DNA of 64,000 nt from Wenjunlia tyrosinilytica (GTDB taxonomy: Bacteria; Actinomycetota; Actinomycetes; Streptomycetales; Streptomycetaceae): assembly GCF_014646055.1 (NCBI RefSeq), contig NZ_BMMS01000001.1, forward strand, positions 395,892 through 459,891. Reading direction: 5' to 3'. The first letter of the stretch is position 1; every line of letters begins with the position of its first letter. The translations under genes and the position numbers were made by a program. The notes beneath the pieces were generated by a model, which was not told the DNA's origin, searched no databases, and saw nothing but the letters and a program-made list of their open reading frames with translations. Of the stretch, positions 13,875 to 51,296 are shown one piece after another.

Positions 13875-15785
13875 TCAGCCCTTGTAGTCCTGGCCGAGGA
13901 CCACGGCGACGTCGGCGTTCTGCGAGCCGGACGCCTTCTTCACCGCCGTCTTCGGCAGCCCCAGGGTCTGGGCGACCTCCTTGGCCGTGTCCGCCTGGAG
14001 GTCGTTGGCGTAGGTCACCGCGGACTTCGCGACCGGCGTGGAGGCCTTGCCCGCCGAGGTGTAGGTGTAGCCGGCGTTGATCAGCGTCACCTGCGCATTG
14101 CCCGAGGCCGTGGAGGTGCCGGTGGCGTCCTTGACGCTCACCCGCGGAGTCGCCTTGGGGTCGGCGTTCTTCACCGTGCCGCCGAGCACATCCTTGACCA
14201 GGCCGTTGTTCGTCGCGTCGGTCAGCGTCCCGTCCGCCGCGACGGGCAGCGGCACCGTCTTGTACTGCCCCGTCTTGGCGTCCTCGGCCAGGGGCGCCAG
14301 CGACGCTCCGAGCTCGTTCTCGGGCAGTGAGGGGTCGGCGACGGAGCCCAGGTTCTTGACCGTCTCGGTGGCGGCGGACGCTTCGCTCGGCATCTGCTTC
14401 AGTACCGACTGCATCACCTGGCCGAACCGGGCTAGCTGCTTGTCCGCGGCCTCGCCGGGCGCGTGGTAGGTGGCGTAGGCGACGGCGCCGACACCGTTGA
14501 GCCGCTGCTGGGGACCCTTCTTGACCAGTGTCTTCGCCTTGTTCTTGCCCGTTCCCTTCACCTCGGAGTCGGTGTCGACGGTGATACCGCCGACCGACTC
14601 GACGAGGAGTTCGAGGAATGGGGTGTCGAGGCGCCAGGTGCCCTTGATCTCGGCGCCGAGCAGCGTGGACAGCGCGTCACGCGTGGGACCCATTCCGGCC
14701 TGGTCCACGGACTTGCCGAGCGTGGTGGAGCCCGCGTCGTCGGTGCTGACGGCGAGGGAGTTCGGCACGAGCACGGCGGTGCCCTTGCCGGTGGTCCTGT
14801 TGTCGACCAGCAGGGCCGTGGAGCTGCGGTCGGCGTCGAGTTCCTTGAGGTGCACGACTATGAGGTCGCGTTTTTGCCCTGCTCCGGCGGCGGCGGCGTT
14901 CTTGGCGCCCCCGAACGGCAGCTCGCCGCGCCACCACAGGTAGCCGACGCCGCCCGCGAGGGCGACGACCAGGACGAGGCCGAGGGAGACGACCCGGTTG
15001 CGCAGTACGCGCTTGCGCTCGTCGCGGCGCTCGCTGCGGGTCTCGGCGAACTTGAGCCAGTCGATGACCTCCTCGTCCTCCTCGTCGTCGACGAAGGAGA
15101 ACTGCTCGGTCCGGTAGTCCGTCCTGGCCGAACCCTGGCCCGGGGACGCGTCGTCGTCACCGTCGGGATCCGGGGTGCGCAGCTCGGCGAGCTCGGCGTA
15201 GGGGTCCTGGACGGACTGCCTCGGCGGCGCGGCGGGGGCCGCGGCGGGGGCTTCCTGCTGTGCGTAGCCGTCCTGGGGATACGCCGGGTACGGGCCGGTC
15301 TCATAGCCGGTGTCGTAGCCGCCGTCATAACTCTCGCCGTAGCTGGTGGTCTGCTGCTGCGGGATGTACGGCTCGGCGTAGCCGGTGCTCTGCTGCTGCG
15401 CCGAGTAGGGGTCGTAGCCGTGGCCCTGCTGGTACTGGCCGCCGCCGTAGGGGTCGGTGTACTGGTCGCCGGCGCCCGGCTGCTGGTATTGCCCGTACTG
15501 GCCGGTGCCGTCGTACTGGCTGCCCTGGGTGTACTGGTCGCCCTGCGGGTACTGGCTGCTCTCGGGGTACTGGCTGCCTTGCGGGTACTGACTGCCCTGG
15601 GGGTACTGATTGCCGTACTGGTCGTACTGGTCGTGCTGAGCGTGGTTCTGGCCCTGACCGTACTGGGCGGTGTAGTCGGCCTGGTCCGCGTAGTCTCCCT
15701 GCTCGCCGCCGTACGGGGCGTCGGGGCGCGGCTCACGTCGGGGTTCTCCCGCGGCGTCGCGCCACGGGGAGTTTGCGTCGGTCAC
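13875..15785 (-). CDS. LytR-CpsA-Psr (LCP) family cell-envelope protein with LytR C-terminal domain
   Basis: 636 residues from a GTG with AGGGG 4 nt upstream. Residues 1-~210 are low-complexity, rich in Gln, Tyr and Gly, with tandem hexads such as QYPQGS. An acidic stretch follows (VDDEEDEEVIDW), then one membrane helix at about 263-283 (VVSLGLVLVVALAGGVGYLWW). The external part has LCP-like features (TALLVDNRTTG, GGITVDTDSEV, RLNGVGAVAYATYHAPGEA) and ends in a LytR_C domain (INAGYTYTSAGKAS to VVLGQDYKG). LCP enzymes attach wall polymers to peptidoglycan. The strict Arg/Asp signature of classical LCP ligases is weak here, so a non-catalytic role is possible. It starts 27 nt after nadD ends. 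Confidence 0.82.
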   Translation of the reverse strand: MTDANSPWRDAAGEPRREPRPDAPYGGEQGDYADQADYTAQYGQGQNHAQHDQYDQYGNQYPQGSQYPQGSQYPESSQYPQGDQYTQGSQYDGTGQYGQYQQPGAGDQYTDPYGGGQYQQGHGYDPYSAQQQSTGYAEPYIPQQQTTSYGESYDGGYDTGYETGPYPAYPQDGYAQQEAPAAAPAAPPRQSVQDPYAELAELRTPDPDGDDDASPGQGSARTDYRTEQFSFVDDEEDEEVIDWLKFAETRSERRDERKRVLRNRVVSLGLVLVVALAGGVGYLWWRGELPFGGAKNAAAAGAGQKRDLIVVHLKELDADRSSTALLVDNRTTGKGTAVLVPNSLAVSTDDAGSTTLGKSVDQAGMGPTRDALSTLLGAEIKGTWRLDTPFLELLVESVGGITVDTDSEVKGTGKNKAKTLVKKGPQQRLNGVGAVAYATYHAPGEAADKQLARFGQVMQSVLKQMPSEASAATETVKNLGSVADPSLPENELGASLAPLAEDAKTGQYKTVPLPVAADGTLTDATNNGLVKDVLGGTVKNADPKATPRVSVKDATGTSTASGNAQVTLINAGYTYTSAGKASTPVAKSAVTYANDLQADTAKEVAQTLGLPKTAVKKASGSQNADVAVVLGQDYKG

Positions 15786-23506: not shown

Positions 23507-24742
23507 TCAGGACCGGGAGGGACCGGCGGTCACCGCCCTCATCGTCCGGGCCACGGCGCGGCTCAGCCTCGGCCCCAGGAGCCTTCGGGCCCCTCTGCGG
23601 ACGCGCTGCAGGGCGGTCGGTGAATCCCGGAAGACCAGCCGCTCCTTCGGGAGCCGCCCGGTCGCGTCGTAGACGGAGTCGGGGATGCCCGCGGAAGGGT
23701 CCCGGAAGTGCGGGTACGCCAGGTAGGCCCGGCGCGCCCGGTGGTCGAGGACGATCTCCGGCTCCTGCTTGGACCGGATGAATTCGAGGACGTCCTTGAG
23801 CAGGTCCAGCCGCCCGGCCGCCACCAGGTGCAGGCGCAGACGCTCCTCGACGCTCAGTCTTCGGGCCACCCCGTCGTTCCAGTGGGCGTCGAACAGCGGC
23901 TCGGCGAGTTCCATGCGGTGCCGCTGCGCCTTCTCGGGCTGCTTGAGCAGGCCCACCTTGAACTGCGGCGACAGCGTGATGGTGAAGGGCCTGACCATGA
24001 GGTCGTCGCGCTTGTCCCCGGGCGGAACGAACCTGGCTATGAGGTCCATCAGCGCGGCGGCCGAGTCGAAGCGCAGGGTGTAGCTGCCGCTCTTGGTGAC
24101 CTGCCGGCCGTCGTCGCGGCCGACGAGGTGGTAGCAGTCGTAGTCGGCCACGACGGACAGGCCGTCGGCCCTCAGATACGCCTCCAGCGTGAAGACGGCG
24201 TCCTCACCGGTCTTGAGCTCCTCGGGGAAGCGCAGGCCGTGCTCCACCAGCAGGCTTCGCCGGAACAGCTTCTGGGCGCTGAGCGTGAACTTCACCTTGG
24301 ACGAGAAGACGTCGGTGCGGTCGAGGTTCCTGCCCCACATGGACTTGGGCGCGCTGCGGTTGATCCCGACGACCTTGCCGAGCACGACGTCGGTGCCGTT
24401 GCGCTCGCCCATGTCGACCAGGCGATCGAGGGCCTCGTCGCCGAAGTAGTCGTCGGCGTCGAGGAAGAACACCCAGCGGCCGGTGGCCAGTTCGAGGCCG
24501 GTGTTGCGTGGGGCGCTGGGGCCGCCGGAGTTGGCCTGGTGGACCACCCGGGTGGGGATCTTCGAGTGGGCTGCGAAGCGGTCCAGTTCCTCGCCGCTTC
24601 CGTCGGTGGACCCGTCGTCCACCGCGATGAGCTCCATGCGGTCGGCGCCGATGGTCTGCGCTTCCACGGACTCCAGGCACCGTGTCAGGTAGGGCATGGC
24701 GTTATAGACCCCGACGATCACACTCACATCGGGACTGGTCAT
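23507..24742 (-). CDS. GT2 (GT-A) glycosyltransferase of the wall-polymer cluster
   Basis: 411 residues, ATG with GGAG 9 nt upstream. N-terminal GT-A domain: SVIVGVYNAMPYLTRCLESV, nucleotide-sugar motif VDDGSTDGS (residues 41-49), NSGGPSAPRNTGLELA, metal-binding DADDYF (95-100). A helical region follows with KTGEDAVFTLEAY, likely the acceptor ED motif, and a ~150-residue basic C-terminal part. The layout resembles enzymes that decorate teichoic acids with sugars. It diverges from the adjacent glycerophosphotransferase-like gene, so a role in glycosylating that polymer is inferred from context. Confidence 0.85.
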   Translation of the reverse strand: MTSPDVSVIVGVYNAMPYLTRCLESVEAQTIGADRMELIAVDDGSTDGSGEELDRFAAHSKIPTRVVHQANSGGPSAPRNTGLELATGRWVFFLDADDYFGDEALDRLVDMGERNGTDVVLGKVVGINRSAPKSMWGRNLDRTDVFSSKVKFTLSAQKLFRRSLLVEHGLRFPEELKTGEDAVFTLEAYLRADGLSVVADYDCYHLVGRDDGRQVTKSGSYTLRFDSAAALMDLIARFVPPGDKRDDLMVRPFTITLSPQFKVGLLKQPEKAQRHRMELAEPLFDAHWNDGVARRLSVEERLRLHLVAAGRLDLLKDVLEFIRSKQEPEIVLDHRARRAYLAYPHFRDPSAGIPDSVYDATGRLPKERLVFRDSPTALQRVRRGARRLLGPRLSRAVARTMRAVTAGPSRS

Positions 24743-25059: not shown

Positions 25060-27204
25060 GTGCCCCCTGTCGGCCCCGTTCTGCGCCGAGTGCCGCAACT
25101 GACCGCCCTGGCCCTCCTGCCCACCGCCTACGCCGCCGAACTCGTCGGCGCCCTGCTGCCGGATGTGCGCCTCCTGGTGGGCGCGACAGCCGCCGTCGTG
25201 GTCGCCGAGCTCCATCTGCTGCGTCGTCGGCGCACCCTGGCCTCGGTCCTGAGCCGGATGCGCGCCGACACCACCGTGCGGCAGCTGCTCAGGGACCTGC
25301 TGCTGATCACGGGTCTGCTCGCGCTGGGCACCCACGACACCACCGCCGTACGCCTGCCGCTGCTCTGCGGCCTGCTCGGCTTCTACTCGCTGCACTTCGT
25401 CTGCCAGGCGATGAGCATCCTGGTGCGCCGCGACCGGACGCTGCCCGTGGTGACGCGCAATATCGACACCTCCGCGCTGCGGCTGCGGCCGGCTCCCCCC
25501 GCCGTCCTGCTGCGCCGCGCGGACCACCGGCTGTCGCTGTTCGGGCTGCCGGCCACCACGGGCCTGGCGCTGACCGCCGTGACGGACCACCCGGCACTGG
25601 GCGCCGCCGGCATCGCCCTGTCCGCGGGGCTGGCCCTGACGGGCGCGCTGGTCCTGGCCGGGCACCTCCTGCCGGGCCGCCGGGCGCCGCGCGAGGAGGA
25701 GGTGCTCCAGTGGCTCGACGACTGGGTGGAGCGCTACCGCCCGACGGTGGGCATGTACTTCTCCGGCGGGACCAGCTCCGCGTACCAGGCCAATATGTGG
25801 CTCTCCACGCTGGCCCGGCTCGACGGCCGGCCGCTGCTCGTGCTGCGCGAGCGCTTCATGGTGCAGAAGATCGAGGCCACCGACGTCCCGATCGTGTGCA
25901 TCCCCAAGGTCGCCCATCTCATGCGGCTGGAGCGCTCGTCGCTGAAGGTGCTGATCCATCCGGCCAACTCGGGCAAGACCTCCCAGGTCCTGCGCATCCC
26001 GTCGATCAAGCACGCCTTCACCAACCACGGCGAGAGCGACAAGCTGTCCAGCTGCAACCCCTACGCCAAGGCGTACGACGAGGTGTGGGTCGCCGGTCCC
26101 GCGGCCCGCGAGCGCTACGCCGTCGCCGACATCGGGGTGGAGGACAAGGACGTGGTGGAGGTCGGCCGGCCCCAGCTCGCCCCCATCCGCGCGGGCGGGC
26201 CGGATCCCGGGGCGGAGTTCACCACCGTGCTGTACGCGCCCACCTGGGAGGGGTGGACGGACGACCCCGGCAACACCTCGGTCGTCCTGGCCGGGGAGAA
26301 CATCGTCCGCGAGCTCCTGAACGACCCCCGGGTCCGCCTGCTCTACAAGCCGCACCCGATGACGGGGACCGTCGACCCCCGGGCTCGCGCCGCCAATCTG
26401 CGGATCATGGCCATGATCGAGGCGGCCGACGCGGCACGGGCCGCCGACCCCCGGCACCACGGCGCCGTGGCCTCCGCCGCGGCGGCCGAGCGCCTGGCCC
26501 TGTGCACCACGGAGCTGGACCGCCTCGCCAGGTCCTCGCCGCGCGGCAGCGCGGACGAGGTGGAGCGCATGTCCCTGCAGGGGCGTCCCGAGCCCGGCTG
26601 GCGGGAGCGGATGGAGGCGGCGGCGCAGGAGTGGGAGGCCGCGCACTGGGACTCGGTGCCCCTGTGGTGCCACCAGGTCGTCAAGGGGCCCCGGCCGTCG
26701 CTGTACTCGTGCTTCAACCAGGCGCACCTGCTCATCAGCGACGTCTCCAGCGTGGTGTCGGACTACCTCAGCAGTGAGAAGCCCTACGCGGTGACGAACA
26801 CCACGTCGATGGGCGAGGAGGAGTTCCGCGCGGCCTTCCCCACCGTGCGGGCCGCCACGATCCTCACCCCCGACGCGTCGGGGGTGCGTGAACTGCTGGC
26901 GCGGGTACGGAGTGAGGCCCCCGACACCCTCGCCGAGGCAAGGCGTGAGCTGAAGCACCATCTGCTCGGCCCCTCCGAGCCCAGTTCGCTGGTCCGCTTC
27001 AACCAGGCCGCCCTGGCCCTGGCCGCACGCGCCGACGAGCGCAGGGCGCGCCAGGAGGCCGCCGCCTCGGCCGTTCCCCAGCAGCGCGGCGGGCCCCTCG
27101 GCGTCCGCCCGTCCACCGTCCGGGAAGCGCACTCGTCGGACACCCTCGAAGTCGGCCCCGGCGGCGCCCCCGAGGGGGCGGGCCAGGGCCGCGCCCAGGG
27201 CTGA
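25060..27204 (+). CDS. Membrane protein with C-terminal CDP-glycerol glycerophosphotransferase (TagF-like) domain, copy 1
   Basis: I chose the GTG at 25060, 8 nt after GGAG; the frame is open from 24910. 714 residues. The first ~200 hold four to six hydrophobic segments, then RLPVVTRNIDT-like sequence (here LPVVTRNIDTSALR). The rest is TagF/TagB-like: MYFSGGTSSAYQANMW, HAFTNHGESDK, AYDEVWVAGPAARERY, VLYAPTWEGW, LLYKPHPMTG and ISDVSSVVSDYLSSEKPYAV. These enzymes transfer alditol-phosphate units from CDP-activated donors to build teichoic acid. An Ala-rich helical insertion (~residues 445-510) interrupts the domain. It shares all parts with the copy at 29171. Confidence 0.87.
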   Translation: MPPVGPVLRRVPQLTALALLPTAYAAELVGALLPDVRLLVGATAAVVVAELHLLRRRRTLASVLSRMRADTTVRQLLRDLLLITGLLALGTHDTTAVRLPLLCGLLGFYSLHFVCQAMSILVRRDRTLPVVTRNIDTSALRLRPAPPAVLLRRADHRLSLFGLPATTGLALTAVTDHPALGAAGIALSAGLALTGALVLAGHLLPGRRAPREEEVLQWLDDWVERYRPTVGMYFSGGTSSAYQANMWLSTLARLDGRPLLVLRERFMVQKIEATDVPIVCIPKVAHLMRLERSSLKVLIHPANSGKTSQVLRIPSIKHAFTNHGESDKLSSCNPYAKAYDEVWVAGPAARERYAVADIGVEDKDVVEVGRPQLAPIRAGGPDPGAEFTTVLYAPTWEGWTDDPGNTSVVLAGENIVRELLNDPRVRLLYKPHPMTGTVDPRARAANLRIMAMIEAADAARAADPRHHGAVASAAAAERLALCTTELDRLARSSPRGSADEVERMSLQGRPEPGWRERMEAAAQEWEAAHWDSVPLWCHQVVKGPRPSLYSCFNQAHLLISDVSSVVSDYLSSEKPYAVTNTTSMGEEEFRAAFPTVRAATILTPDASGVRELLARVRSEAPDTLAEARRELKHHLLGPSEPSSLVRFNQAALALAARADERRARQEAAASAVPQQRGGPLGVRPSTVREAHSSDTLEVGPGGAPEGAGQGRAQG

Positions 27205-27650
27205 ACCGACGCCGCACGAGCGCGCGCTCCGGACGGCCTCCGGGGCGCGCTTCGGCGTCCCCGGCCGCCCGGACCAGGGCGCCCGTGCCCGAAGCGGTAA
27301 AGAATGGGTAACTTTCACCGCTCGCGCGCCGACCCCCAACGCCCCGCGCGAGGGCGAGTTGTGGAAGACATGGGGTGCGACGGCGTGCACAGTGGCGGCA
27401 GCTTCGGCGGGAGGGCGCTCCACCCGACCCACAAGGCGGACAAATCGTCCATGCAACCTTGTGAGGCTTGTCACCGTCCAACCCTACGGAGGGCACGGGA
27501 TGTTTAGGAGTTCGCGCCCGAGTGGATAACCTGATGTTTCCCGGGCCGTCACCGTGGACATGCAGCCGCGGCCCCCGCGCCCTCTCAGGCGCACGTTGCG
27601 CAACGTCGCTCAACAAGATCGTCGATCCGAAGGAAGTCGAGGCAGGTCCT
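27205..27650. other. Intergenic region upstream of the cytidylyltransferase-reductase gene
   Basis: 446 nt without a supported gene. A hairpin at 27222-27250 (GCGCGC-T-CCGG / CCGG-G-GCGCGC) probably ends the upstream transcript. Past 27300 the sequence is less GC-rich and should hold the promoter of the next gene; TAACCT at 27527-27532 is a weak -10 candidate. A reading frame from 27468 joins the next gene but has no convincing start of its own. Confidence 0.5.
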
Positions 27651-29174
27651 GTGCCCGAATACAAGACCGGGGTCCGCACCGCGGCCGTAGTGCTGGCGGG
27701 AGGGACCGGCCAGCGCGTCGGCCTGGCGATACCGAAGCAGCTGCTGAAGATCGCCGGCAAGACGATCATTGAGCACACCCTCTCGGCGTTCGAGGAGAGC
27801 CCCGAGATCGACGAGATCATCGTACTGATGGCTCATGGCTACGTGCCCGAGGTGGAGCAGATCGTCGCCAAGGCCGGCCTGCGCAAGGTGACCAAGGTCC
27901 TCGAGGGCGGCGCGACCCGCAACGACACCACCACCATCGCCATCACCACCCTGGGCGAGGGCCTGGCCGAGGGAGAGGACATGAACGTCCTCTTCCACGA
28001 CGCCGTCCGCCCCCTGCTGTCCGAGCGGGTCATATCGGACTGCGTCGCCGCCCTGGAGAAGTACCAGGCCGTGGACGTGGCGATCCCCTCCGCGGACACG
28101 ATCATCACCACCCGCACCCACGGGGAGGACGGTGAGTTCATCACCGAGATCCCCGACCGCTCCCGGCTGCGCCGCGGGCAGACGCCCCAGGCGTTCAAGC
28201 TCTCCACCATCCGCGAGGCCTACGCCATCGCCGCCGGCGACCCGCACTTCCAGGCCACCGACGACTGCTCGGTCGTCCTCAAGTACCTGCCCGACGTGCC
28301 GATCTACGTCGTGCAGGGCGAAGAGCACAACATGAAGGTGACGCAGCCCGTCGACATCTTCATCGCGGACAAGCTCTTCCAGCTCGCCTCCCAAACCGCA
28401 CCGTCGCAGCCCGACGACGCCGCGTACCGCGAGCTCCTCACCGGAAAGACGATGGTCGTCTTCGGCGGCTCCTACGGCATCGGCGCCGACGTGGCCGAGC
28501 TCGCCCGCAGCCACGGGGCCACCGTCTACGCCCTCGGCCGCAGCACCACCGGCACCCACGTCGAGGACCCGGCCCAGGTCGAGGCCGCCCTGGCCAAGGC
28601 GCACAGCGAGACCGGCCGAGTCGACTACGTCGTCAACACCGCGGGGATCCTGCGCATCGGCAAGCTCGCCGAGACCGACGACGAGGTCATCGAGGAAGCC
28701 CTCAAGGTCAACTACCTCGCCCCGGTCTACATGGCCCGCAGCGCCTACAAGTACCTGTCCAAGACCCAGGGCCAGCTGCTGCTCTACACCTCCAGCAGCT
28801 ACACCCGCGGCCGCGGCGACTACAGCCTCTACTCCTCCACCAAGGCCGCGATGGTCAACCTCACGCAGGCCCTGGCCGACGAGTGGGCCGCCGACGGCAT
28901 CCGGGTCAACTGCGTCAACCCCGAGCGCACCCGCACCCCGATGCGCACCAAGGCGTTCGGCAACGAGCCCGAGGGCTCGCTGCTCAGCTCCGAGGCCGTC
29001 GCCCGCACCTCACTGGACGTCCTGCTGTCCTCGCTGACCGGCCACGTCATCGACGTCCGCCGCCAGGACCCCACCCGGGGCTCGGCCTCCGCCCGCTCCT
29101 TCAGCGAGGCGCTGACCGCCGCGCTGGCCAACGACCACGCCGCCCTGGACTCCGTGGACGGGGAAGCCGAGTGA
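27651..29174 (+). CDS. Fused cytidylyltransferase / short-chain reductase, probable CDP-ribitol synthase (Bcs1-like)
   Basis: I chose the GTG at 27651 with GAGG 8 nt upstream (507 residues). Residues 1-~245 are an IspD/TarI-type nucleotidyltransferase: AVVLAGGTGQRVGLAIPKQLL at 12-32, GGATRNDT, VLFHDAVRPLL, RGQTPQAFK and KVTQPVDIFIADKL. Residues ~260-507 are a short-chain dehydrogenase: VFGGSYGIGADVAELA (nucleotide loop), VNTAGI, and catalytic YSLYSSTKA near residue 394. The same order occurs in Haemophilus Bcs1, which reduces ribulose-5-phosphate and makes CDP-ribitol. The stop overlaps the next start as GTGA. Substrate is inferred from architecture and neighbours. Confidence 0.85.
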   Translation: MPEYKTGVRTAAVVLAGGTGQRVGLAIPKQLLKIAGKTIIEHTLSAFEESPEIDEIIVLMAHGYVPEVEQIVAKAGLRKVTKVLEGGATRNDTTTIAITTLGEGLAEGEDMNVLFHDAVRPLLSERVISDCVAALEKYQAVDVAIPSADTIITTRTHGEDGEFITEIPDRSRLRRGQTPQAFKLSTIREAYAIAAGDPHFQATDDCSVVLKYLPDVPIYVVQGEEHNMKVTQPVDIFIADKLFQLASQTAPSQPDDAAYRELLTGKTMVVFGGSYGIGADVAELARSHGATVYALGRSTTGTHVEDPAQVEAALAKAHSETGRVDYVVNTAGILRIGKLAETDDEVIEEALKVNYLAPVYMARSAYKYLSKTQGQLLLYTSSSYTRGRGDYSLYSSTKAAMVNLTQALADEWAADGIRVNCVNPERTRTPMRTKAFGNEPEGSLLSSEAVARTSLDVLLSSLTGHVIDVRRQDPTRGSASARSFSEALTAALANDHAALDSVDGEAE

Positions 29175-31303
29175 TCTCCACCGCCGTCCGACTGGCCCGG
29201 GTGGGCAGCACCTCGGAGCTGGGAGCGGCCGCCCTGCTGTTCCTCGGCTTCCCCGTCATGCTGCTGGCAGCGCTGCTGCCGAACCTGTGGCTGTTCACCG
29301 CCGCCGCGGCCGCGACCTACGCGGGCGACTGGTGGCTGCACCGGCAGGGCTCGCGCATGGTGGCGCTCCTGCGCCGCGTCAGGGCGGGACTGTCGATCCG
29401 CTTCCTCGCGCGTGAGCTCCTGCTCGTGCTGCTGCTGTCGCGGATGGGCTTCTCCGGCACCGCCGCGTTCTACCTCGGGGTCTCCGGCTTCCTGGTCTTC
29501 TACGGGCTCCAGGCCCCGCACGCGGCGCTGCTGACGCTCATCCGCAACAGCCGCAGGCTGCCGGTGGTCACCCGCAACATCGACATGTCCGGGCTGCGCA
29601 TCCCCGGCGCCCCCCCGCGCCTGCTCACCAGGCGCGCCGCGGAGAAGATGCTGCACCTCGACCTGGCGATGGTGGCCGGGCTGATCATCACCGCGGCCAC
29701 GGAGCGCACCCTCTTCGGCCTCGTGGGCGCCGTGATCACCGTGGCGCTCGGCACCGCCTTCACCGTCGCCCTGCTGCCGTACCTGCGCTCCTCGCGCAAG
29801 CCCGCGCGCACCGAGCGGGTCCTGGAGTACATGGACGAGTGGCTGCGCGGTTACCGGCCCACGGTGGCGCTGTACTTCTCCGGCTCCCGCACCTCGGCTT
29901 ACCAGGCCAACATGTGGCTGGAGACCCTGGCCGCCCTGGACGAGCGCCCGCTGGTCATCCTGCGCGAGCGCTACATCGTCCCCAAGCTCGCCCCCACCTC
30001 CGTTCCGGTGCTGTGCGTGCCGAGCGCGGTGCATCTGATGGGCATGGACCTGACCAGCCTGCGGGTGGCGCTCTACCCGGCCAACGTGGGCAAGAACATC
30101 CACATGCTGCGCGAGCCGGGCATGAAGCACGTGTTCATCGGCCACGGCGACAGCGACAAGATCGCCTCGGTCAACCCGTACAGCAAGGCGTACGACGAGG
30201 TGTGGACGGCGGGGCGCGCCGGCCGCGACCGGTACGCGCTCGCGGACGTCGGTGTCCGGGACGACGACATAGTCGAGGTGGGCCGCCCGCAGCTGGGCGC
30301 CATCGTGGCGGGGACCGGCGAGCCCGTCGGCCCGATGCCGACCGTGCTGTACGCCCCCACGTGGGAGGGCTGGACGGACGACCCGGGCAACACCTCGCTC
30401 ATCCTCGCTGGGGAGAACGTCGTCAAGCAGCTCGTCGCGGCCCGTCCCGAGGTCCGGGTGCTGTACAAGCCGCACCCGTTCACCGGTTCGCGCTGCCCGA
30501 AGGCCAAGGCCGCCCACGAGCGGATCCTGTCCGTGATCGAGCAGGCCAACGCCGAGCGCTCCGCCGAGCCGCAGTGGCGTGAGCGGGCCGCCGCCGACGC
30601 CGCTGAGCGGGACACCGCCGCCGCCGAGGTCCGGCGCATCGCCGCCCGCCTCGCGGAGCTGGAGACCGCGGTCAAGGAGGACGCCGACGAGGCGGAGGGG
30701 TCGCGCGACGGCGTCATGGACCCCGCGCACGCCGCCGAGGCGGAGCGGCTGCGGGCACAGTGGAACGACGCCTACTGGAAGTCGTTCGGCTGGTGGGAGC
30801 ACCGGGTGATCACCGGCTCCCGGCCGCATCTGTACGACTGCTTCAACCGCGGCGACATGATGGTCTCGGACATCTCCAGCGTGGTCTCCGACTTCATCGC
30901 GAGCGAGAAGCCGTACGCGATCACGGACACCACGGGGCTCGGCGCCGAGGAGTTCAAGCGCCAGAACTCCACGGCCAGGGCCGCGTTCATCCTCACCCCC
31001 GACGCCTCGGGTGTGCCGGAGCTGCTGGAGTCCGTGCGCGGCTCCGCGTCCGACCCGCTGGCCCATGACCGCCGCACGCTCAAGGAGTACCTGCTCGGCC
31101 CGGACGAGCCGACGTCGCTGGTGCGGTTCGGGCAGGCGATCAAGGAGCTCTCGGCGAAGGCCGAGGCACGGCTCGGCCGCCTCGAGCGGGCCGGGATCCA
31201 CGACAGCGACCTGGTGGAGATCCCGCAGCCGCGGGAGGAGCCGGAAGCCGTCGAGGTGCGCGAGGACGCCGACGCCGCGGAGTCGGTCACGTCGGCGGGC
31301 TGA
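29171..31303 (+). CDS. Membrane protein with C-terminal CDP-alditol phosphotransferase (TagF-like) domain, copy 2
   Basis: GTG at 29171 overlaps the preceding stop (GTGA), so translation is probably coupled; the frame itself is open from 28883. 710 residues. The N-terminal ~210 residues have several membrane segments, then RLPVVTRNIDMSGLRIPGAP. The transferase part matches copy 1: LYFSGSRTSAYQANMW, HVFIGHGDSDK, AYDEVWTAGRAGRDRY, VLYAPTWEGWTDDPGN, LYKPHPFTG and SDISSVVSDFIASEKPYAI. A charged coiled-coil-like insertion (EVRRIAARLAELETAVKED) occupies the same place as the Ala-rich insertion in copy 1. Coupling to the CDP-ribitol-type enzyme suggests a ribitol-phosphate polymerase or primase. Confidence 0.87.
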   Translation: MISTAVRLARVGSTSELGAAALLFLGFPVMLLAALLPNLWLFTAAAAATYAGDWWLHRQGSRMVALLRRVRAGLSIRFLARELLLVLLLSRMGFSGTAAFYLGVSGFLVFYGLQAPHAALLTLIRNSRRLPVVTRNIDMSGLRIPGAPPRLLTRRAAEKMLHLDLAMVAGLIITAATERTLFGLVGAVITVALGTAFTVALLPYLRSSRKPARTERVLEYMDEWLRGYRPTVALYFSGSRTSAYQANMWLETLAALDERPLVILRERYIVPKLAPTSVPVLCVPSAVHLMGMDLTSLRVALYPANVGKNIHMLREPGMKHVFIGHGDSDKIASVNPYSKAYDEVWTAGRAGRDRYALADVGVRDDDIVEVGRPQLGAIVAGTGEPVGPMPTVLYAPTWEGWTDDPGNTSLILAGENVVKQLVAARPEVRVLYKPHPFTGSRCPKAKAAHERILSVIEQANAERSAEPQWRERAAADAAERDTAAAEVRRIAARLAELETAVKEDADEAEGSRDGVMDPAHAAEAERLRAQWNDAYWKSFGWWEHRVITGSRPHLYDCFNRGDMMVSDISSVVSDFIASEKPYAITDTTGLGAEEFKRQNSTARAAFILTPDASGVPELLESVRGSASDPLAHDRRTLKEYLLGPDEPTSLVRFGQAIKELSAKAEARLGRLERAGIHDSDLVEIPQPREEPEAVEVREDADAAESVTSAG

Positions 31304-31434: not shown

Positions 31435-32985
31435 TCAGACGGTCTCGACGCCCCGTTTGCCGTTGCGGACCCGCAGCCGGGAGACGGTGCTCGCCGGCGA
31501 CTGGGGCCGGCGCACGGTCTCCACGGCGCGCACCTGGGCGTCGACGCAGTGGTGGTCGATGTCGAACAGGTGGTAGCCGCGGTGGCCGTCGACGAGTTTC
31601 CAGTGCGGATTGTCGGGCCTGCGCGGGTCCCACTCGGCGTTGAACGCGGCCTCGTCCAGGTCGCCGCCGCTGGTGATCGAGGTGCCGACGAACTCCGCCC
31701 CGACCACCTGGGACGACGGGTCGGCGAAGTCGCGCTTGAGGTCGCTGATCATCGTCAGGTGCCGGTCCCCGGTCATCACGACGGGGTTGCGGACGCGGGC
31801 GAACTCCCCCATCAGTTCGTCGCGTTCGACCTGGTAGCCGTCCCAGGCGTCGTAGAACCACAGCTTGCCGGGGCCGACCTGGAGATCCGTCTCGGCCATC
31901 ATGATCTGGGAGGCGATCAGATTCCAGCGCGCGTGCGAGCGGTGCAGCCCGTTGAGCAGCCAGGCCTTCTGGTCCTGCCCCAGCATCGTCATCGACGGGT
32001 CCTGCGCGCCCTCCGCGGTGGTGGCCTGGTCGCTGCGGAACTGACGGGTGTCCAGCACATGCAGCCGGGCGAGGTACCCGAAGTCGAAGCTGCGGTGCAT
32101 CCTGATGTGCGGCCCGTCGGGCACCGCCGTGGCACGGACCGGCATGTGCTCGTAGTACGCCTGGTAGGCGGCGGTCAGCCGGGCGACGAAGGCGTCGTGG
32201 GACTGCTTGTCGGGGTCCTGGGGGATCTCCCCGGCGAAGTCGTTGTCCACCTCGTGGTCGTCGAAGGTCACGATCCACGGGGCCGCGGCATGCATCGCCG
32301 CGAGGTCGGGGTCGGTGCGGTACTGCGCGTAGCGGTTGCGGTACTGCACGAGGGAGTACGGCTCGCCCTTGCCCTCGTGGCGGCGCACGGCCGTGGACGA
32401 GGGGCCGCTCTCGTAGATGTAGTCGCCGACGAACAGGACCACGTCCGGGTCCTGGGCGGCCATGTCCGCGTAGGCGTTGAAGTACCCGTGCTGCCAGTTC
32501 TGGCAGGAGGCCAGCGCCACACGCAGCCGGTTGGCGAACAGGCCGGGCGCGGTGCGGGTGCGGCCGACCGGGGAGATCTGGTCCTCGACGCGGAAGCGGT
32601 ACCAGTAGTCGCGGTGGGGGCGCAGGCCGCGTACATCCACATGGACGCTGTGGCCCAACTGCGGGACGGCCTGGGTCTGCCCCTGCCGGACCACGCGCTT
32701 GAACGTGTCGTCCTCGGCGATCTGCCAGCCCACGTCGACGGCGGCGTCCGGCATGCCTCCGCCGTTGAGCGGGTCCGGTGCCAGGCGGGTCCACAGCACG
32801 ACGCCGTCGCGCAGCGGGTCGCCGGAGGCCACTCCGAGGGTGAACAGGCCGTCGGGCAGGGTGCCCGCCGCCGCGGCGCTTCCCGCGGTGGCGAGGCCGA
32901 CGAAGGCGGCGCTGAGCGCCGCGGCTCCGGTGGCGAGGATGGTGCGTCGATTGGGTGTGTGAACCCCGGTCAGGCGTCCGGACAT
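31435..32985 (-). CDS. phoD: PhoD-family alkaline phosphatase/phosphodiesterase, Tat-exported
   Basis: ATG at 32985 with GGGAGG 9 nt upstream; the open frame to 33138 is not needed. 516 residues. A twin-arginine signal (PNRRTILATG at 11-20, then a hydrophobic stretch ending AAAA near 40) predicts export of a folded, metal-loaded enzyme. Mature features are FTLGVASGDPLRDGVVLWTRL, VALASCQNW, VVLFVGDYIYESG, VTFDDHEVDNDFAG and VVMTGDRHLTM, matching the PhoD metallophosphatase fold with Ca and Fe ligands. It releases phosphate from esters outside the cell; B. subtilis PhoD also degrades teichoic acid, which fits the adjacent polymer cluster. Confidence 0.93.
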   Translation of the reverse strand: MSGRLTGVHTPNRRTILATGAAALSAAFVGLATAGSAAAAGTLPDGLFTLGVASGDPLRDGVVLWTRLAPDPLNGGGMPDAAVDVGWQIAEDDTFKRVVRQGQTQAVPQLGHSVHVDVRGLRPHRDYWYRFRVEDQISPVGRTRTAPGLFANRLRVALASCQNWQHGYFNAYADMAAQDPDVVLFVGDYIYESGPSSTAVRRHEGKGEPYSLVQYRNRYAQYRTDPDLAAMHAAAPWIVTFDDHEVDNDFAGEIPQDPDKQSHDAFVARLTAAYQAYYEHMPVRATAVPDGPHIRMHRSFDFGYLARLHVLDTRQFRSDQATTAEGAQDPSMTMLGQDQKAWLLNGLHRSHARWNLIASQIMMAETDLQVGPGKLWFYDAWDGYQVERDELMGEFARVRNPVVMTGDRHLTMISDLKRDFADPSSQVVGAEFVGTSITSGGDLDEAAFNAEWDPRRPDNPHWKLVDGHRGYHLFDIDHHCVDAQVRAVETVRRPQSPASTVSRLRVRNGKRGVETV

Positions 32986-33005
32986 CTGAGGTTGCCTCCC
33001 GTCAG

Positions 33006-33019
33006 TTGCCATACGGCAA
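33006..33019. promoter_or_regulatory. Small palindrome upstream of phoD
   Basis: TTGCC-ATAC-GGCAA, 21 nt upstream of the phoD start and just before its ribosome binding site. It could be an operator or chance. I did not find a clear PhoP box (11-bp GTTCACC-type direct repeats) nearby; only one GTTCAC occurs. Confidence 0.3.
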
Positions 33020-33145
33020 TGGGAAGTTCTCAGATGACGAGGGTCCAGTACGTGAACAAGACACTTCAGGCGCATGACAACATTCGGACGGTCACACGCC
33101 GAGCGCCCCCGAGGTCGTCCCTCGAGGGCGCTCTCCACGGCGCGT

Positions 33146-34237
33146 TCAGCGCTTCTGCCGCTTCCTGACCCTGAACGCCCAGTCCATCCCGGGCTCCACG
33201 ACGGGCCGGAAAAGAACCCTGAACGGCGCGGTGCCGAGCACGACCGCCACGGCGGCGGCGACCAGGGTGACGACGACCTCGCCCTTCGGGGTGTGCACGA
33301 AGCTGTTGTCGTACCAGTGCCCGTACTCGGCGCCCTTCACCAGGAAGCCGTGGAGGAGGTACACGTACAGCGTCGTCGCCCCCATCCCGGTCACCCACAG
33401 GCGCCGCCCGGGCACCCAGGAGAAGAACCCGGCCACGAGCACCAGCGAGCAGGCGAACATCGCCAGCGTCATCACCAGGGGCACCGGGGTGGAGACACCC
33501 AGTTCCTCCGCGCTCTCGCGGTGGTAGAACCAGTCCATCGCCATCCTCGGCGCCGCCCAGTAGGCGAACGCGGTGACCACGGCGAAGAACGGCACGGCGA
33601 GCAGGCGCACATTCCACGAGCGCACCATCGCGAAGTGCTTCGGCTGGAGGCACAGACCCAGCACGAAGAACGGCATGAACTGCAGGACGCGCTGGAGGTC
33701 GAGGTCGTCACCGATCTTCGAGGTCCCGGCGAGCGCGGCCACGGCGAGCGCGACCGGCACCGGCCAGCGGACGATCCGCCAGATCGGCGCGGTGAGCCTC
33801 CAGATGAACAGCGCGATGAGGAACCACGTCAGGTACCACGGGTCGATCAGGCTGACCGGATGGGTCGGGTCCCCGCCCGCGACGCGTTTGAAGAGGCTGT
33901 ACGCCGTCTCGAAGACCAGGTACGGCACCACCACACCGGTCAACAGCCGCTGGAGGCGGTCCGCGCGGGAGTCAAAGGTGCGCGAGAAGTAGCCGGAGAT
34001 GATGATGAACGCCGGCATGTGGAACGCGTACACGACCATGTACAGCGCGCGGGTGGTGCGGCTGCTGTCGATCAGCGGCTCCCACGAGTGCGCGATCACG
34101 ACCAGGACAATCGCGAAGAACTTCGCGTTGTCGAAGAAATGCTCCCGCTGGGGTGCGGGCTTGGCCTGCCCCTCCTGGGAGTCCTTCGCGTGCGCGGCCT
34201 TCTCGGCGCCGGCGGGCCAGGTCTGAAGGGGGATCAC
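33146..34237 (-). CDS. Membrane acyltransferase family 3 (fucose 4-O-acetylase-like)
   Basis: GTG at 34237 gives 363 residues; an upstream extension to 34735 runs through the FG-GAP relic and obgE in another frame and is not real. The protein has about ten membrane segments. The N-terminal signature HFFDNAKFFAIVLVVIAHSWEPLI carries the His essential in this acyltransferase superfamily; FHMPAFIIISGYFSR follows. Members transfer acetyl or other acyl groups onto surface polysaccharides and lipids. It follows phoD and the polymer cluster, so O-acylation of a surface polymer is a reasonable but unproven role. Confidence 0.83.
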   Translation of the reverse strand: MIPLQTWPAGAEKAAHAKDSQEGQAKPAPQREHFFDNAKFFAIVLVVIAHSWEPLIDSSRTTRALYMVVYAFHMPAFIIISGYFSRTFDSRADRLQRLLTGVVVPYLVFETAYSLFKRVAGGDPTHPVSLIDPWYLTWFLIALFIWRLTAPIWRIVRWPVPVALAVAALAGTSKIGDDLDLQRVLQFMPFFVLGLCLQPKHFAMVRSWNVRLLAVPFFAVVTAFAYWAAPRMAMDWFYHRESAEELGVSTPVPLVMTLAMFACSLVLVAGFFSWVPGRRLWVTGMGATTLYVYLLHGFLVKGAEYGHWYDNSFVHTPKGEVVVTLVAAAVAVVLGTAPFRVLFRPVVEPGMDWAFRVRKRQKR

Positions 34238-34310
34238 CGGGCCACCCACCGAGGACGCACGAAAGCGGAACTGGGCCGTCTGACGTCTTGGGGTATCCGC
34301 CGTGCCTTCT

Positions 34311-34622
34311 TCATTCGCAGCACCGTACCCACCAATGGCGGTTCCACGCCAAACTCGCCGGTGGTGACCGTGCGGGCACGCGGCGGCTCCCCCGGCGCCG
34401 GGCGCGGGGGGCCGCTGCCCGGTCCCAGCGGCCGAAGGTCCCGCCGGATCGGGCCCCGGTGACCGGCGACCCCAGCCCGCTCGCACCGAACGCGTAGGAG
34501 CCCGTGGCCGTTGTCGCGCCCTTGACGTTGGGAAGGATCCACACCAGGCCGTCGCCCGCGTGCTCGTTCGGGCCGCCGACGGCCGGCGAGGCACGGCCGT
34601 CGCCGTTGTCGTCGATCGCCGC
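34311..34622 (-). pseudogene. Remnant of an FG-GAP (integrin-like) repeat protein
   Basis: Directly after the obgE stop, and in the same frame, the minus strand reads IDDNGDGRASPAVGG, then GDGLVWILPNVKGATTATG and SYAFGASGLGSPVTG. This is the calcium-binding DxNGDG and FG-GAP pattern of secreted beta-propeller proteins. It has no start codon, covers roughly one blade, and its C-terminal 45 codons are Arg/Pro-rich nonsense before the stop. It reads as the 3' end of a lost gene. It explains the otherwise empty 34238-34622 gap. Confidence 0.5.
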
Positions 34623-45994: not shown

Positions 45995-47191
45995 TCAGGC
46001 GGAGACCGGTTTCTTGACCTGGATGGACTGCAGCAGCCCCACCGCTATCCACACGGCGAACATCGACGAGCCGCCGTAGGAGACGAAGGGCAGCGGAAGA
46101 CCGGCCACGGGCATGATGCCGAGCGTCATCCCGATGTTCTCGAACGCCTGGAAGGCGAACCAGGCCACGATGCCGGCGGCCACTATCGTGCTGTACAGGT
46201 CGCCCGCGTTCCGCGCGATGCGGCACGCCCTCCACAGGACCACGCCGATCAGGAGGATGAGCGCGCCCGCCCCCACGAAGCCGAGTTCCTCACCGGCGAC
46301 GGTGAAGACGAAGTCGGTCTGCTGCTCCGGCACGAACTGGCCCGAGGTCTGGCTGCCGTGGAAGAGCCCCTTGCCGAGCAGCCCCCCGGAACCGATCGCG
46401 ATCCGGGCCTGGTTGGTGTTGTAGCCGACGCCGGACGGGTCGAGGGCGGGATTGGCGAACGCGGCGAAGCGGTCGATCTGGTACTGGTCGAGGACGCCGA
46501 GCTTCCAGATGAGCGTGGCGCCGAGACCTCCCGCGGCGATGAGTCCGACGACCCAGCGGTTGGAGGCGCCCGAGGCCAGCAGGATACCGAGGACGATCAC
46601 CACCATCACCATGACCGACCCCATGTCGGGCATCAGCATGATGACGGCCATGGGCACGGCGGACAGCGCCAGCGCCTGCATCACCGTGCGGTGGTCCGGG
46701 TGCTTGCGGTCCCCCGCGTCCACCTTGGTGGCCAGCAGCACGGCCATCCCCAGGATGATCGTGATCTTGGCGAACTCCGAGGGCTGGAGCGAGAATCCGC
46801 CGCCGATGACGATCCAGGCGTGAGCGCCGTTGATGGTGCTGCCGAGCGGGGTGAGCACGGCCAGCAGGAGGACGACCGAGGTGATGTAGAGCACCGGGAC
46901 CGCTCCGCGCAGGCGGCGGTGCCCCACCGCCACGACGGCCACGGCGAGGGCGAAGCCGATGCCCACGTTGAGGACGTTGCGCAGCAGGAAGTAGTACCTG
47001 TCGCCGTGGTTGAGCTCGGTGCGGCCGCGGGTGGCGGAGTAGACGAGCAGGGTGCCGACGGCGGACAGCACGAGGGCGGAGCCGAGCAGTATCCAGTCCA
47101 GCCGCCACAGCAGCGAGTCCCGGGCGAAGACCTTCCCCATCGTGCCGCGTTCCGGTGTGTAGCGGCGGACCGAGTAGCTGTGACTGCTCAC
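45995..47191 (-). CDS. rodA: RodA/FtsW-family SEDS peptidoglycan glycosyltransferase
   Basis: 398 residues with about ten membrane segments. SEDS hallmarks: NGAHAWIVIGGGFSLQPSEFAK, PDMGSVMVMVVIVLG, QARIAIGSGGLLGKGLF and PEQQTDFVFTVAGEELGFVG, followed by PVAGLPLPFVSYGGSSM near the C-terminus. It polymerises glycan strands with the partner PBP2. It overlaps mrdA as GTGA, so both are probably produced together. In Streptomyces, this cluster is chiefly needed for spore wall synthesis. Confidence 0.96.
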   Translation of the reverse strand: MSSHSYSVRRYTPERGTMGKVFARDSLLWRLDWILLGSALVLSAVGTLLVYSATRGRTELNHGDRYYFLLRNVLNVGIGFALAVAVVAVGHRRLRGAVPVLYITSVVLLLAVLTPLGSTINGAHAWIVIGGGFSLQPSEFAKITIILGMAVLLATKVDAGDRKHPDHRTVMQALALSAVPMAVIMLMPDMGSVMVMVVIVLGILLASGASNRWVVGLIAAGGLGATLIWKLGVLDQYQIDRFAAFANPALDPSGVGYNTNQARIAIGSGGLLGKGLFHGSQTSGQFVPEQQTDFVFTVAGEELGFVGAGALILLIGVVLWRACRIARNAGDLYSTIVAAGIVAWFAFQAFENIGMTLGIMPVAGLPLPFVSYGGSSMFAVWIAVGLLQSIQVKKPVSA

Positions 47192-49407: not shown

Positions 49408-50138
49408 GGACGCTTCCCCAGCTTGCCGAATCCATTGCGGTTGAGGGACCGGCCGAAGCCCGAGCGCTGGCCGCCGATCCTGGTGCGGCCGGGCCGCAGC
49501 AGGCCGGAGCGCACCCGCCCGGTCCCGTTGAGCTTGCCCGTGGCGCTGAACCGGCTGCCCCGGCCGTTGGCGGCGGACAGCCAGCCCTGGGCGGCGGCGG
49601 CCGACGCGCTGCCCTCCCCGGGGGTGCCCAGTGGGTCGGGATCGAGCTTCCTGGCCAGGGCCATGACCCAGGGCACGGTGAAGGGGGCGAGCAGCAGGTC
49701 GTAGAGCAGCGCGGACAGGACGAGGCTGCTGAAGCCGACGTTGCGGGCGGCGGTGTCACCCACGAGGGAGCCGACGCCCGCGTACAGGACGGTGCTGGCC
49801 ACGGCGGCGCACGCCACGACGAACATGGGCTTGGTGGCCGAGCGCAGCGGACCGGTCTCGGGCCGGACGAGACCGGCGAGGTAGCCGATCAGGCACAGCA
49901 CGAGGGCGTAGCGGCCCGCCGCGTGGTCGGCGGGGGGCGCGAGGTCGGTCAGCAGCCCCGCGCCGAATCCCACGAGGCTGCCGCCCATGGGTCCGTAGGT
50001 GATGGCCAGGCCCACGACGACCAGCAGGGTCAGGTCGGGGACGGCGCCGGGCAGGTGGAGCCTGGCGAGGATGCTGACCTGGAGGACCAGTGCCACGGCG
50101 AGGAGGAGGCAGGAGAGCAGCAGTCGGTTGAGGCGCAT
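49404..50138 (-). CDS. mreD: Rod-shape/sporulation protein MreD
   Basis: 244 residues; about five membrane segments in the first ~165 residues (LLLSCLLLAVALVLQVSIL, LTLLVVVGLAITYG, GFGAGLLTDLAPP, YALVLCLIGYLAGLV). MreD links MreBC to the RodA-PBP2 synthase. An unusual ~80-residue Gly/Arg/Ser-rich tail, very basic, follows the membrane part; it would lie in the cytoplasm or along the membrane. It follows mreC by 3 nt and overlaps mrdA. Confidence 0.9.
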   Translation of the reverse strand: MRLNRLLLSCLLLAVALVLQVSILARLHLPGAVPDLTLLVVVGLAITYGPMGGSLVGFGAGLLTDLAPPADHAAGRYALVLCLIGYLAGLVRPETGPLRSATKPMFVVACAAVASTVLYAGVGSLVGDTAARNVGFSSLVLSALLYDLLLAPFTVPWVMALARKLDPDPLGTPGEGSASAAAAQGWLSAANGRGSRFSATGKLNGTGRVRSGLLRPGRTRIGGQRSGFGRSLNRNGFGKLGKRP

Positions 50139-50141
50139 GGG

Positions 50142-51296
50142 TCAGCCCCTCCTGAGGCCTGAGATGGCGGTGCCGGTGCCACCGGTGGGGGTGGCGGGAG
50201 GCGTTGACCCGGGGGGCGGTGGCCCGTTGTCGGGTTCCGGCTGCCGGTCCTGGCCCGTCGGGTCGGTCCCGGCGGGATCCTGCCCGCCGCCGCGGTCCTG
50301 CGCGGTGCCGCCGGGGGTCGGCTGGACGGCCTGCCCGGCCTCGTTCTGCTGGGTGCTCCGGCCGGTCCGGGTGTCCTGCCCGCCGCTCTTGTCCGGGTCC
50401 GGGCTCGCCTTGGGTTCCTTCTTCGGCGTGGGCCTGGGCACGGGCGGCAGCACACTGTCGCGCGGGTCCTTGCGCGGGCCCTGGACCACGACGCCCACGA
50501 GGTCGAGACGGGTGAACGAGACATACGGCTGGACCTGCACGGTCCGGGTGAGGTTGCCGCCCGCGCGCTCGACGCGGACGACCTTGCCGACGGGCACACC
50601 GGGGACGAACGGCTTGCCCGCCTGCGAGCCGAAGGTGACCATGCGGTCGCCGGTCTTGACCTGGGCCTTGCCGTTGAGGAGCTGCACCCGCAGCGGCCGG
50701 TCGCCCTGGCCGGTGGCGAAGCCGAGCTCCATGGAGTTCTCGAGGCGCGTGCCGACGGTGAAGTCGGGGTCGTTGGCCAGCAGCACCGTGGCGGTGGAGG
50801 GGCCGACGGTGGTGACCCGGCCGACGAGGCCGTCGCCGTTGAGTACGGTCATGTCGCGCGTGAGGCCGTCCATGCTCCCGGCGTCGATGGTGACGGTCCA
50901 GGAGAAGCCCTGGGCGGCTCCTATGGCGATGATCTGGGCCGCCTTGACGGTGTAGCGGCCGGCGCCCGCGGTCTTGAGCAGCTTGTCGAGCTCGGCGACG
51001 CGGCTGCGGTTGACGGCGCTGCTGCCGAGCTTCTCCTTGAGCTGGGCGTTCTCCCGCTCGAGTTCGGCCACGCGCCCGGCGCGGCCACCGGAGTCGCGCA
51101 CGGCCGAGATGGCGTCGCCCACCGGGCGGGTGAAGGCGGAGACCTTGTCCTCAGCAGGGCCGAAGACCTTGGCGGCGGCGGTGCGCGCCCCGTCGATCGG
51201 AGACTCCTCACCGCCCCTGATGTCCACGGTGATGAGCGCGAAAGCGATCGCGACCAGCAGCACCAACAGCAGCCGGCTCTCTCGGGTGTCCCTCAC
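50142..51296 (-). CDS. mreC: Rod-shape/sporulation protein MreC
   Basis: 384 residues from a GTG. One N-terminal membrane helix (LLLVLLVAIAFALITV), a coiled coil (RVAELERENAQLKEKLGSS), then the MreC beta-barrel core (SWTVTIDAGSMDGLTRDMTVLNGDGLVGRV; VLLANDPDFTVGTRLE). The last ~110 residues are a Pro/Gly/Asp-rich tail absent from most MreC proteins outside actinobacteria. MreC scaffolds PBP2-RodA on the outer face of the membrane. Confidence 0.95.
   Translation of the reverse strand: MRDTRESRLLLVLLVAIAFALITVDIRGGEESPIDGARTAAAKVFGPAEDKVSAFTRPVGDAISAVRDSGGRAGRVAELERENAQLKEKLGSSAVNRSRVAELDKLLKTAGAGRYTVKAAQIIAIGAAQGFSWTVTIDAGSMDGLTRDMTVLNGDGLVGRVTTVGPSTATVLLANDPDFTVGTRLENSMELGFATGQGDRPLRVQLLNGKAQVKTGDRMVTFGSQAGKPFVPGVPVGKVVRVERAGGNLTRTVQVQPYVSFTRLDLVGVVVQGPRKDPRDSVLPPVPRPTPKKEPKASPDPDKSGGQDTRTGRSTQQNEAGQAVQPTPGGTAQDRGGGQDPAGTDPTGQDRQPEPDNGPPPPGSTPPATPTGGTGTAISGLRRG

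Follow-up and report, generated by a model that had tools for sequence, protein, structure and literature searches.

A probable ribitol teichoic acid cassette between obg and proB in Wenjunlia tyrosinilytica and the different standing of its two membrane-anchored transferases

The wall polymers of streptomycetes are poorly understood, and a locus in Wenjunlia tyrosinilytica, a member of the Streptomycetaceae, raises the question of which of two related transferases might build such a polymer. The window (the whole stretch of DNA that was analyzed, 64,000 nucleotides of high GC content from contig NZ_BMMS01000001.1, positions 395,892 to 459,891 of the forward strand) carries a gene for a fused cytidylyltransferase-reductase, here called TarIJ, lying between the genes for two membrane-anchored, TagF-like transferases, TfA and TfB. 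A first-pass annotation of the sequence had seen in these genes a self-contained route to a ribitol-phosphate wall polymer made by both transferases. The most probable reading, and one we hold with fairly high confidence, is a cassette for wall teichoic acid of the ribitol type, situated between obg and proB, with TfB as the polymerase and TfA as a separate enzyme. Loci of this type have already been described, but only TfB, and not TfA, appears to be ribitol-dependent.

All three genes are as the annotation had described them: the open reading frames (ORFs) are present, their codon composition is of the coding type, and their domains can be found. Their starts are backed by homologs, and the equivalents of TfA often begin VPSAG or similar. 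The central features are the following.

25060 to 27204, plus strand: TfA, GTG start, coding-type codon composition; a membrane-anchored TagF-like transferase of the NHGESDK clade.
27651 to 29174, plus strand: TarIJ, GTG start; a Bcs1-like, putative bifunctional cytidine diphosphate (CDP)-ribitol synthase (PF01128, PF00106, NF001183 and PDB matches).
27681 to 28382, plus strand: the TarI (cytidylyltransferase) half of TarIJ, residues 11-244 (domain models, PDB matches).
28437 to 29051, plus strand: the short-chain dehydrogenase/reductase (SDR) half of TarIJ, about residues 263-467 (GGSYGIG and YxxxK motifs).
29171 to 29174, plus strand: a GTGA overlap of 4 bases in the sequence, the TfB start codon lying on the TarIJ stop codon.
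29171 to 31303, plus strand: TfB, GTG start; a membrane-anchored TagF-like transferase of the GHGDSDK clade and candidate ribitol-phosphate polymerase.
29210 to 29785, plus strand: residues 14-205 of TfB, predicted to form membrane helices at the N-terminus (hydrophobicity; secondary structure of the model).
30143 to 30160, plus strand: the HGDSDK stretch of TfB (H325-K330), matched by motif to TagF H444-K449.
30473 to 30475, plus strand: H435 of TfB (in YKPHP), the likely counterpart of the second catalytic histidine of TagF/CroT.
30497 to 30781, plus strand: helical insertion of about 95 residues (443-537) within the GT-B core of TfB (secondary structure of the model).

The first step is to ask what TarIJ makes. 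Its IspD/TarI domain (residues 11-241) matches PF01128 at 159.3 bits, and its SDR domain (about residues 263-440) matches PF00106 at 114.2 bits. The TarI half passes NF001183, the model for D-ribitol-5-phosphate cytidylyltransferase (170.2 against a cut-off of 166), and stays below the cut-off of the IspD model TIGR00453 (173.1 vs 181.3 bits), while the closest PDB matches carry the name ribitol-5-phosphate cytidylyltransferase. In its own genome, TarIJ is the sole full-length match, with an ispD-like gene and many SDRs matching partially. That separate ispD-like gene has 33% identity and scores 84.1 bits, under the TarI cut-off. An IspD identity for the TarI half is therefore rejected, since the IspD cut-off is missed and a separate ispD-like gene exists. 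The glycine-rich stretch GGSYGIG and the YxxxK block, which we read as the SDR motifs, are both kept in 20 of 21 aligned TarIJ rows, the window included. Fused relatives are also found in Parabacteroides (51%), where the protein is annotated as a "bifunctional cytidylyltransferase/SDR family oxidoreductase," and in Proteus (45%). A second TarIJ copy in one genome (G453; L103:7584-8969, plus strand) has an intact TarI half and an SDR half without GGSYGIG and the YxxxK block, and its sequence makes it a possible cytidylyltransferase-only derivative.

From its domain identity, TarIJ would be a CDP-ribitol synthase of the Bcs1 kind, as the annotation had it. Bcs1 of Haemophilus influenzae type b is reported to be a CDP-ribitol synthase that uses NADPH and cytidine triphosphate (CTP), and it can be set beside TarIJ by description, reductase and cytidylyltransferase being joined in one protein in both (PMC10299916). 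Unlike Bcs1, TarIJ would supply the wall polymer of a Gram-positive bacterium, and its product would be taken up by a separate, membrane-anchored transferase in place of the multi-domain Bcs3.

The link from CDP-ribitol to a wall polymer comes from published chemistry. By nuclear magnetic resonance (NMR), the wall polymer of Streptomyces antibioticus is a 1,5-poly(ribitol phosphate) with beta-glucose, and that of S. griseus is mainly ribitol phosphate (PMC13274773). The same paper already names SGR_4956 as TarIJ and SGR_4957 as TagF near L21/L27, which is where the same enzymes lie in the window. The parts of that paper at hand report no tarIJ or tagF mutant. In the genome of S. antibioticus DSM 40234 (L059), there are orthologs of TarIJ (80%), TfB (62%) and TfA (63%), as well as of a neighboring glycosyltransferase, GT2 (65%), and a PhoD-type protein (73%). 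This strain we take to be NRRL B-1701, the one used for NMR. The published ribitol polymer and the orthologs together tie the locus to a ribitol polymer, and by this analogy the wall polymer proposed in the annotation finds support. In Streptomyces sp. SirexAA-E (L067), the order L21, obg, TarIJ, TfB, GT2 would fit the SGR numbering, the S. griseus genome itself being outside the comparison. Compared with the locus of these species, the window has the TarIJ-TfB pair turned around with respect to obg and proB, a 4-base overlap between the two genes, TfA immediately upstream of them, and an acyltransferase that is not conserved. In S. coelicolor, SCO2589, SCO2590 and SCO2592 are listed among the wall teichoic acid genes (PMC3937824), and the portions of the literature on SCO2589-SCO2592 at hand held no chemistry of this locus.

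Substrate choice is, of course, unreadable from sequence alone, and CDP-glucitol synthesis has been reported for Campylobacter capsules (PMC10918830). TarIJ might then make another CDP-alditol, such as CDP-arabinitol or CDP-xylitol, and the polymer would not be poly(ribitol phosphate). This is quite improbable given that the TarI-specific model is passed and that the ribitol polymer has been shown in S. antibioticus and S. griseus (PMC13274773), the former with a strain that has the orthologs.

The next step is to ask which transferase goes with TarIJ. A sample of 150 Streptomycetaceae genomes and a phylum-wide draw of 346 genomes were searched, at E 1e-60 or better for TarIJ, E 1e-20 or better for the TfA/TfB family, and E 1e-90 for GT2. 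TarIJ occurs in 9 of the 346 phylum-wide genomes and in 38 of the 150 family genomes. A TfA/TfB-family gene is present in 53 of the latter, namely in 38 of 38 with TarIJ and in 15 of 112 without it (Fisher 1e-23 over the 150 genomes, not corrected for relatedness). The 39 TarIJ genes of these genomes have a family gene within 400 bp in 36 cases and within 12 kb in all 39, and in 34 it is directly downstream on the same strand. With 36 of 39 paired within 400 bp, a chance neighborhood of TarIJ and the transferase is rejected. The translational coupling that the annotation had proposed is another matter. The GTGA overlap is there in the window, but it is not general: with gene starts chosen by script, TarIJ and TfB are 10 to 262 bp apart in 32 other pairs, save for one overlap (L096), so that the idea of a conserved coupling indicating a complex is also rejected.

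The family itself falls into two types. Among 84 family proteins in the fetched loci, 42 are nearest to TfA and all read NHGESDK, and the 42 nearest to TfB read GHGDSDK in 41 cases and HHGDSDK in one. The 15 family genomes without TarIJ hold 17 family genes, every one of them NHGESDK and thus TfA-type; the last of the 17 was fetched after the prediction and was TfA-type as predicted. The GHGDSDK genes, by comparison, are seen only in TarIJ-positive genomes or loci. One locus (L071) is only seemingly an exception, as two separate ORFs make up its TarIJ, and the seven GHGDSDK genes that lie away from the TarIJ locus (L120-L126) belong to six TarIJ-positive genomes. A maximum-likelihood tree was built from 60 rows, of which 53 came from the 84 family proteins, two from the window and five from outgroups; 16 near-duplicate loci and X-containing rows were excluded. 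It places 28 rows in a TfA clade with support 100/98.

Some features of the sampling need to be kept in mind. The first 16 TarIJ-less loci were chosen for carrying a family gene, so the presence of TfA in all of those is by selection. Loci L047-L074 came from a TarIJ-based search and are biased to near relatives, L062 and L108 are from one genome, and the scan of neighbor genes around dissimilar TarIJ loci covered 30 that were picked from 130 listed.

These distributions bear on whether both transferases serve the same polymer, as the annotation had claimed. TfA and TfB are paralogs (46% identity) that flank TarIJ in the window, with TfA upstream as annotated, and of the 28 fetched TarIJ loci in which obg is in view, 24 have a TfA of 55% or more, so one could consider both to be CDP-ribitol-dependent polymerases, or a primer and a polymerase, of one ribitol polymer. 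The evidence on the other side makes this unlikely. TfA-type genes occur in 15 genomes without TarIJ, and in none of these 15 does any protein exceed the cut-off of the TarI model; in 25 of the 38 TarIJ genomes there is only a single family member; and the two clades differ at the HG[DE]SDK motif. Because TfA-type genes are present without TarIJ and without a passing TarI, TfA does not depend on CDP-ribitol from a recognizable TarI, and its distribution suggests that it probably does not need CDP-ribitol. The annotation's view of two ribitol-phosphate polymerases is thus hard to keep. A source of CDP-glycerol was also considered for TfA and set aside: the TagD model TIGR01518 is over its cut-off in none of the 150 family genomes, and its weak matches in 44 of them (best 68 vs 165.4 bits), six being among the 15 TfA-only genomes, show no clear association with the latter.

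The relation of both proteins to TagF is real but remote. TfB matches PF04464 at 28.8 bits, over the gathering score of 22.1, but its paralogue TfA stays under it at 20.6 bits. In alignment A1, which consists of 44 hand-picked TfA/TfB-type rows, 42 homologs match PF04464 at E 1e-3 or better. A TfA/TfB profile run against PDB sequences gives one weak TagF-like match (Cps3D, 2.2e-4); the other matches, ribosomal protein eL8 among them, have E values of 0.039 or above. The membrane-fused architecture in the annotation is supported by prediction. There are four hydrophobic N-terminal segments in TfB and two in TfA, and the AlphaFold2 model of TfB (predicted local distance difference test [pLDDT] 90.4, predicted template modeling score [pTM] 0.87) has helices at 14-205 preceding a GT-B core at about 228-666. 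Membrane anchoring is thus supported by hydrophobicity and the model for TfB and by the predicted segments for TfA.

The TfB model aligns with TarL (8va1; Z 16.9, root-mean-square deviation [rmsd] 8.1, 324 aligned), TagF (3l7k; Z 15.7, rmsd 5.7, 322 aligned) and Bcs3 (Z 16.3), and a Foldseek search ranks TagF (3l7j) second at E 1.9e-6. Residues H325, G326, S328, D329 and K330 of the HGDSDK motif, as well as H435, are invariant in the 44 aligned sequences. The counterpart site of HGDSDK is described for TagF in PMC10299916. By motif, H325 and H435 (likely in the case of H435) would correspond to the two catalytic histidines, which are H444 and its partner in TagF and H96 and H233 in CroT. TagF of Staphylococcus epidermidis and TarL of S. 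aureus share with TfB the GT-B core, the two histidines and a D-x-S-S motif. TfB differs from them in its N-terminal membrane helices, its remote sequence similarity, a serine at a site that is proline or glycine there, and the helical insertion, which is largely missing from shorter homologs (e.g., L032 and L036) in the 44-row alignment.

At that site, P447 in TagF, proline is said to go with glycerol and glycine with ribitol (PMC10299916). A search of the W. tyrosinilytica genome with PF04464 at E 0.001 recovers four other proteins and neither TfA nor TfB. All four are GT2-TagF fusions that read HGTPLK, with proline at the P447 site, which is the glycerol form by the published rule. The four are on contigs C33 (L110) and C14 (L111), three of them in tandem. 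Judged by this motif, the four probably belong to a separate glycerol-type polymer pathway.

The remaining genes of the cassette and its surroundings are these.

23507 to 24742, minus strand: GT2, a TarS-like glycosyltransferase (PF00535 and TarS_linker PF22181); candidate backbone glycosylation enzyme.
31435 to 33138, minus strand: PhoD-type phosphatase/phosphodiesterase (PF09423, 342.3 bits), with a putative role in the cassette.
33146 to 34480, minus strand: membrane O-acyltransferase (PF01757), start approximate, the ORF being open to 34735.

GT2 is divergent from TfA, and proA and proB lie beyond it; on the opposite side, PhoD and the acyltransferase are followed by obg and L21. The proA, proB, obg and L21 genes of the window each pass their models.

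GT2 carries PF00535 and the TarS linker PF22181 (41.9 bits vs a cut-off of 27), an arrangement like that of TarS of S. aureus. Its profile matches the PDB entries 5tze (1.7e-52) and 5tz8 (5.1e-52), with 6h1j next at 2.6e-37; the match spans about residues 7-236 of 411. We take 5tze and 5tz8 to be TarS, the PDB listing saying only "Glycosyl transferase." The predicted structure is of low confidence (pLDDT 64.3), and the sequence profiles were used in place of a fold search. At the threshold given above, GT2 is found in 20 family genomes out of the 150, with 60% or more in 17 of them and 47-49% in the other three. The 17 orthologs are all in TarIJ-positive genomes and all within 3 kb of TarIJ, and GT2s with a TarS linker also adjoin TarIJ or TfB in the differently ordered loci L099 and L100. 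The decorating role given to GT2 in the annotation thus fits its profiles, and the protein is a candidate for glycosylating the ribitol polymer.

Several observations weigh against the account given so far. The similarity of TfA and TfB to PF04464 is remote. Other GT-B enzymes match the TfB model equally well (UDP-GlcNAc 2-epimerase 7vyy at Z 17.5, MurG at Z 16.8), which means that the fold alone is insufficient and the family assignment is based on the hidden Markov model and the motifs. The site equated with TagF P447 is an invariant serine (Ser328 in TfB) in both TfA and TfB and decides nothing. Outside the Streptomycetaceae, TarIJ may lack a TfB-like neighbor (L072, L073, L074, L105), and Pro-type TagF-like proteins sit in the TarIJ loci of Nocardioides and Marmoricola. 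The TfB clade (26 rows) has support 89/96, the first figure being under the threshold of 95, and relatedness among the genomes inflates the counts. Weaker relatives of GT2 occur without TarIJ (G460 at 49%, L082 at 43%). No assay of TfA or TfB was found in the literature. The wall polymer of S. griseus is without glucose and has some glycerol phosphate (PMC13274773), and because of the missing glucose the sugar added by GT2 is uncertain.

The Pro/Gly site was rejected as a donor test, being uninformative with serine in both clades and Pro-bearing TagF-like proteins in TarIJ loci. The latter, in L072, L073 and L074 (Nocardioides and Marmoricola), read HGYPFK, HGYPAK or HGNPGK; PF04464 was confirmed for L074:11495-15058, a GT2-PF04464 fusion (245.7 bits) that lies 67 bp from TarIJ. 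They are a possible further partner for CDP-ribitol.

The neighborhood adds to this picture. TarIJ and a TagF-like gene near obg/L21 are seen in the window and in the 28 fetched TarIJ loci. The annotation had suggested that PhoD and the acyltransferase could recycle or decorate the polymer. In the fetched loci where obg is in view, PhoD accompanies the cassette (23 of 28 TarIJ loci vs none of 14 TarIJ-less ones), but the acyltransferase, present in one of the 28, is a neighbor and no conserved partner. The usual order in Streptomyces is obg, PhoD, TarIJ, TfB, GT2, TfA (reversed) and proB, from which the window deviates by its inverted TarIJ-TfB pair and by having TfA between TarIJ and GT2. In 34 loci both obg and proB are in view, 21 with TarIJ and 13 without. 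All 13 TarIJ-less slots hold TfA. Six have nothing but TfA (L078, L079, L084, L085, L087, L089), four have one or two unassigned ORFs besides (L080, L091, L092, L093), two have HGTPLK fusions (L082, L088), and one has a 1468-residue GT2-like ORF (L086). Between obg and proB there seems to be a variable slot in which wall-polymer cassettes reside. The GT2-TagF fusions beside TfA are at L082:11031-16116 and L088:12137-14731, an arrangement in line with the description of SCO2589 and SCO2590 of S. coelicolor as CDP-glycerol glycerophosphotransferases. In another locus, a gene adjoining TarIJ (L101:6401-7519, minus strand) matches the 5-bladed beta-propeller receptor-binding domain PF21311 and recalls the propeller lectin of an umbrella toxin (PMC13274773).

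One could also ask whether the product is attached to the wall at all. A capsule or exported exopolysaccharide would be in keeping with the fused Parabacteroides homolog, which lies in a Wzy/LicD polysaccharide locus, and with the Wzy_C proteins near TarIJ in L105. Yet a scan of six genes in the obg-proB interval of the window shows no Wzy or export gene, a wall polymer has been published for the relatives (PMC13274773), and about 8 kb from the cassette there is an LCP-LytR_C protein that is likely the ortholog of PdtA (SCO2578), all of which makes a capsule very improbable. That the route is self-contained, as the annotation had it, goes beyond this evidence: the six genes hold no linkage-unit gene either, and no genome-wide search was made for linkage-unit or export genes. 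The LCP-LytR_C gene is at 13875-15785 of the window, and its relatives are found beyond proA in several other loci. On the other side, wall-synthesis genes cluster at 45995-52472, with genes for a RodA-like protein, a penicillin-binding protein, MreC and MreB.

Returning to the wall teichoic acid cassette, TarIJ would reduce D-ribulose-5-phosphate with NADPH and then couple the resulting D-ribitol-5-phosphate to CTP, giving CDP-ribitol. TfB would polymerize ribitol phosphate from it. GT2 may then add a sugar to the ribitol units, perhaps beta-glucose by analogy with S. antibioticus, and PhoD could, speculatively, trim or recycle the polymer. TfA would work without TarIJ, either as a related transferase that takes its polyol phosphate from a different donor or in a shared early step; a role as second polymerase or in such a step is speculative.

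A broader proposal, which we put forward tentatively and consider rather doubtful, is that TfA and TfB form a class of their own, membrane-anchored polyol-phosphate polymerases that differ in donor, and that obg-proB is an exchangeable slot, filled by TfA alone, by TfA with glycerol-type TagF fusions, or by TarIJ-TfB-GT2-PhoD with or without TfA. If this is true, a single locus would provide a cell that has both clades with two different polyol-phosphate polymers or with a hybrid.

The significance of separating TfB from its paralog TfA is that it provides a sequence test to predict which species make a ribitol polymer and names the gene to delete. It leaves TfA an orphan among polyol-phosphate transferases, and the species that have TfA only are the place to look for its donor. 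The ribitol teichoic acids of streptomycetes carry a receptor for umbrella toxins (PMC13274773). Should the obg-proB interval prove to be an exchangeable slot, a change of cassette would alter the surface polymer that these toxins, and perhaps phages, recognize.

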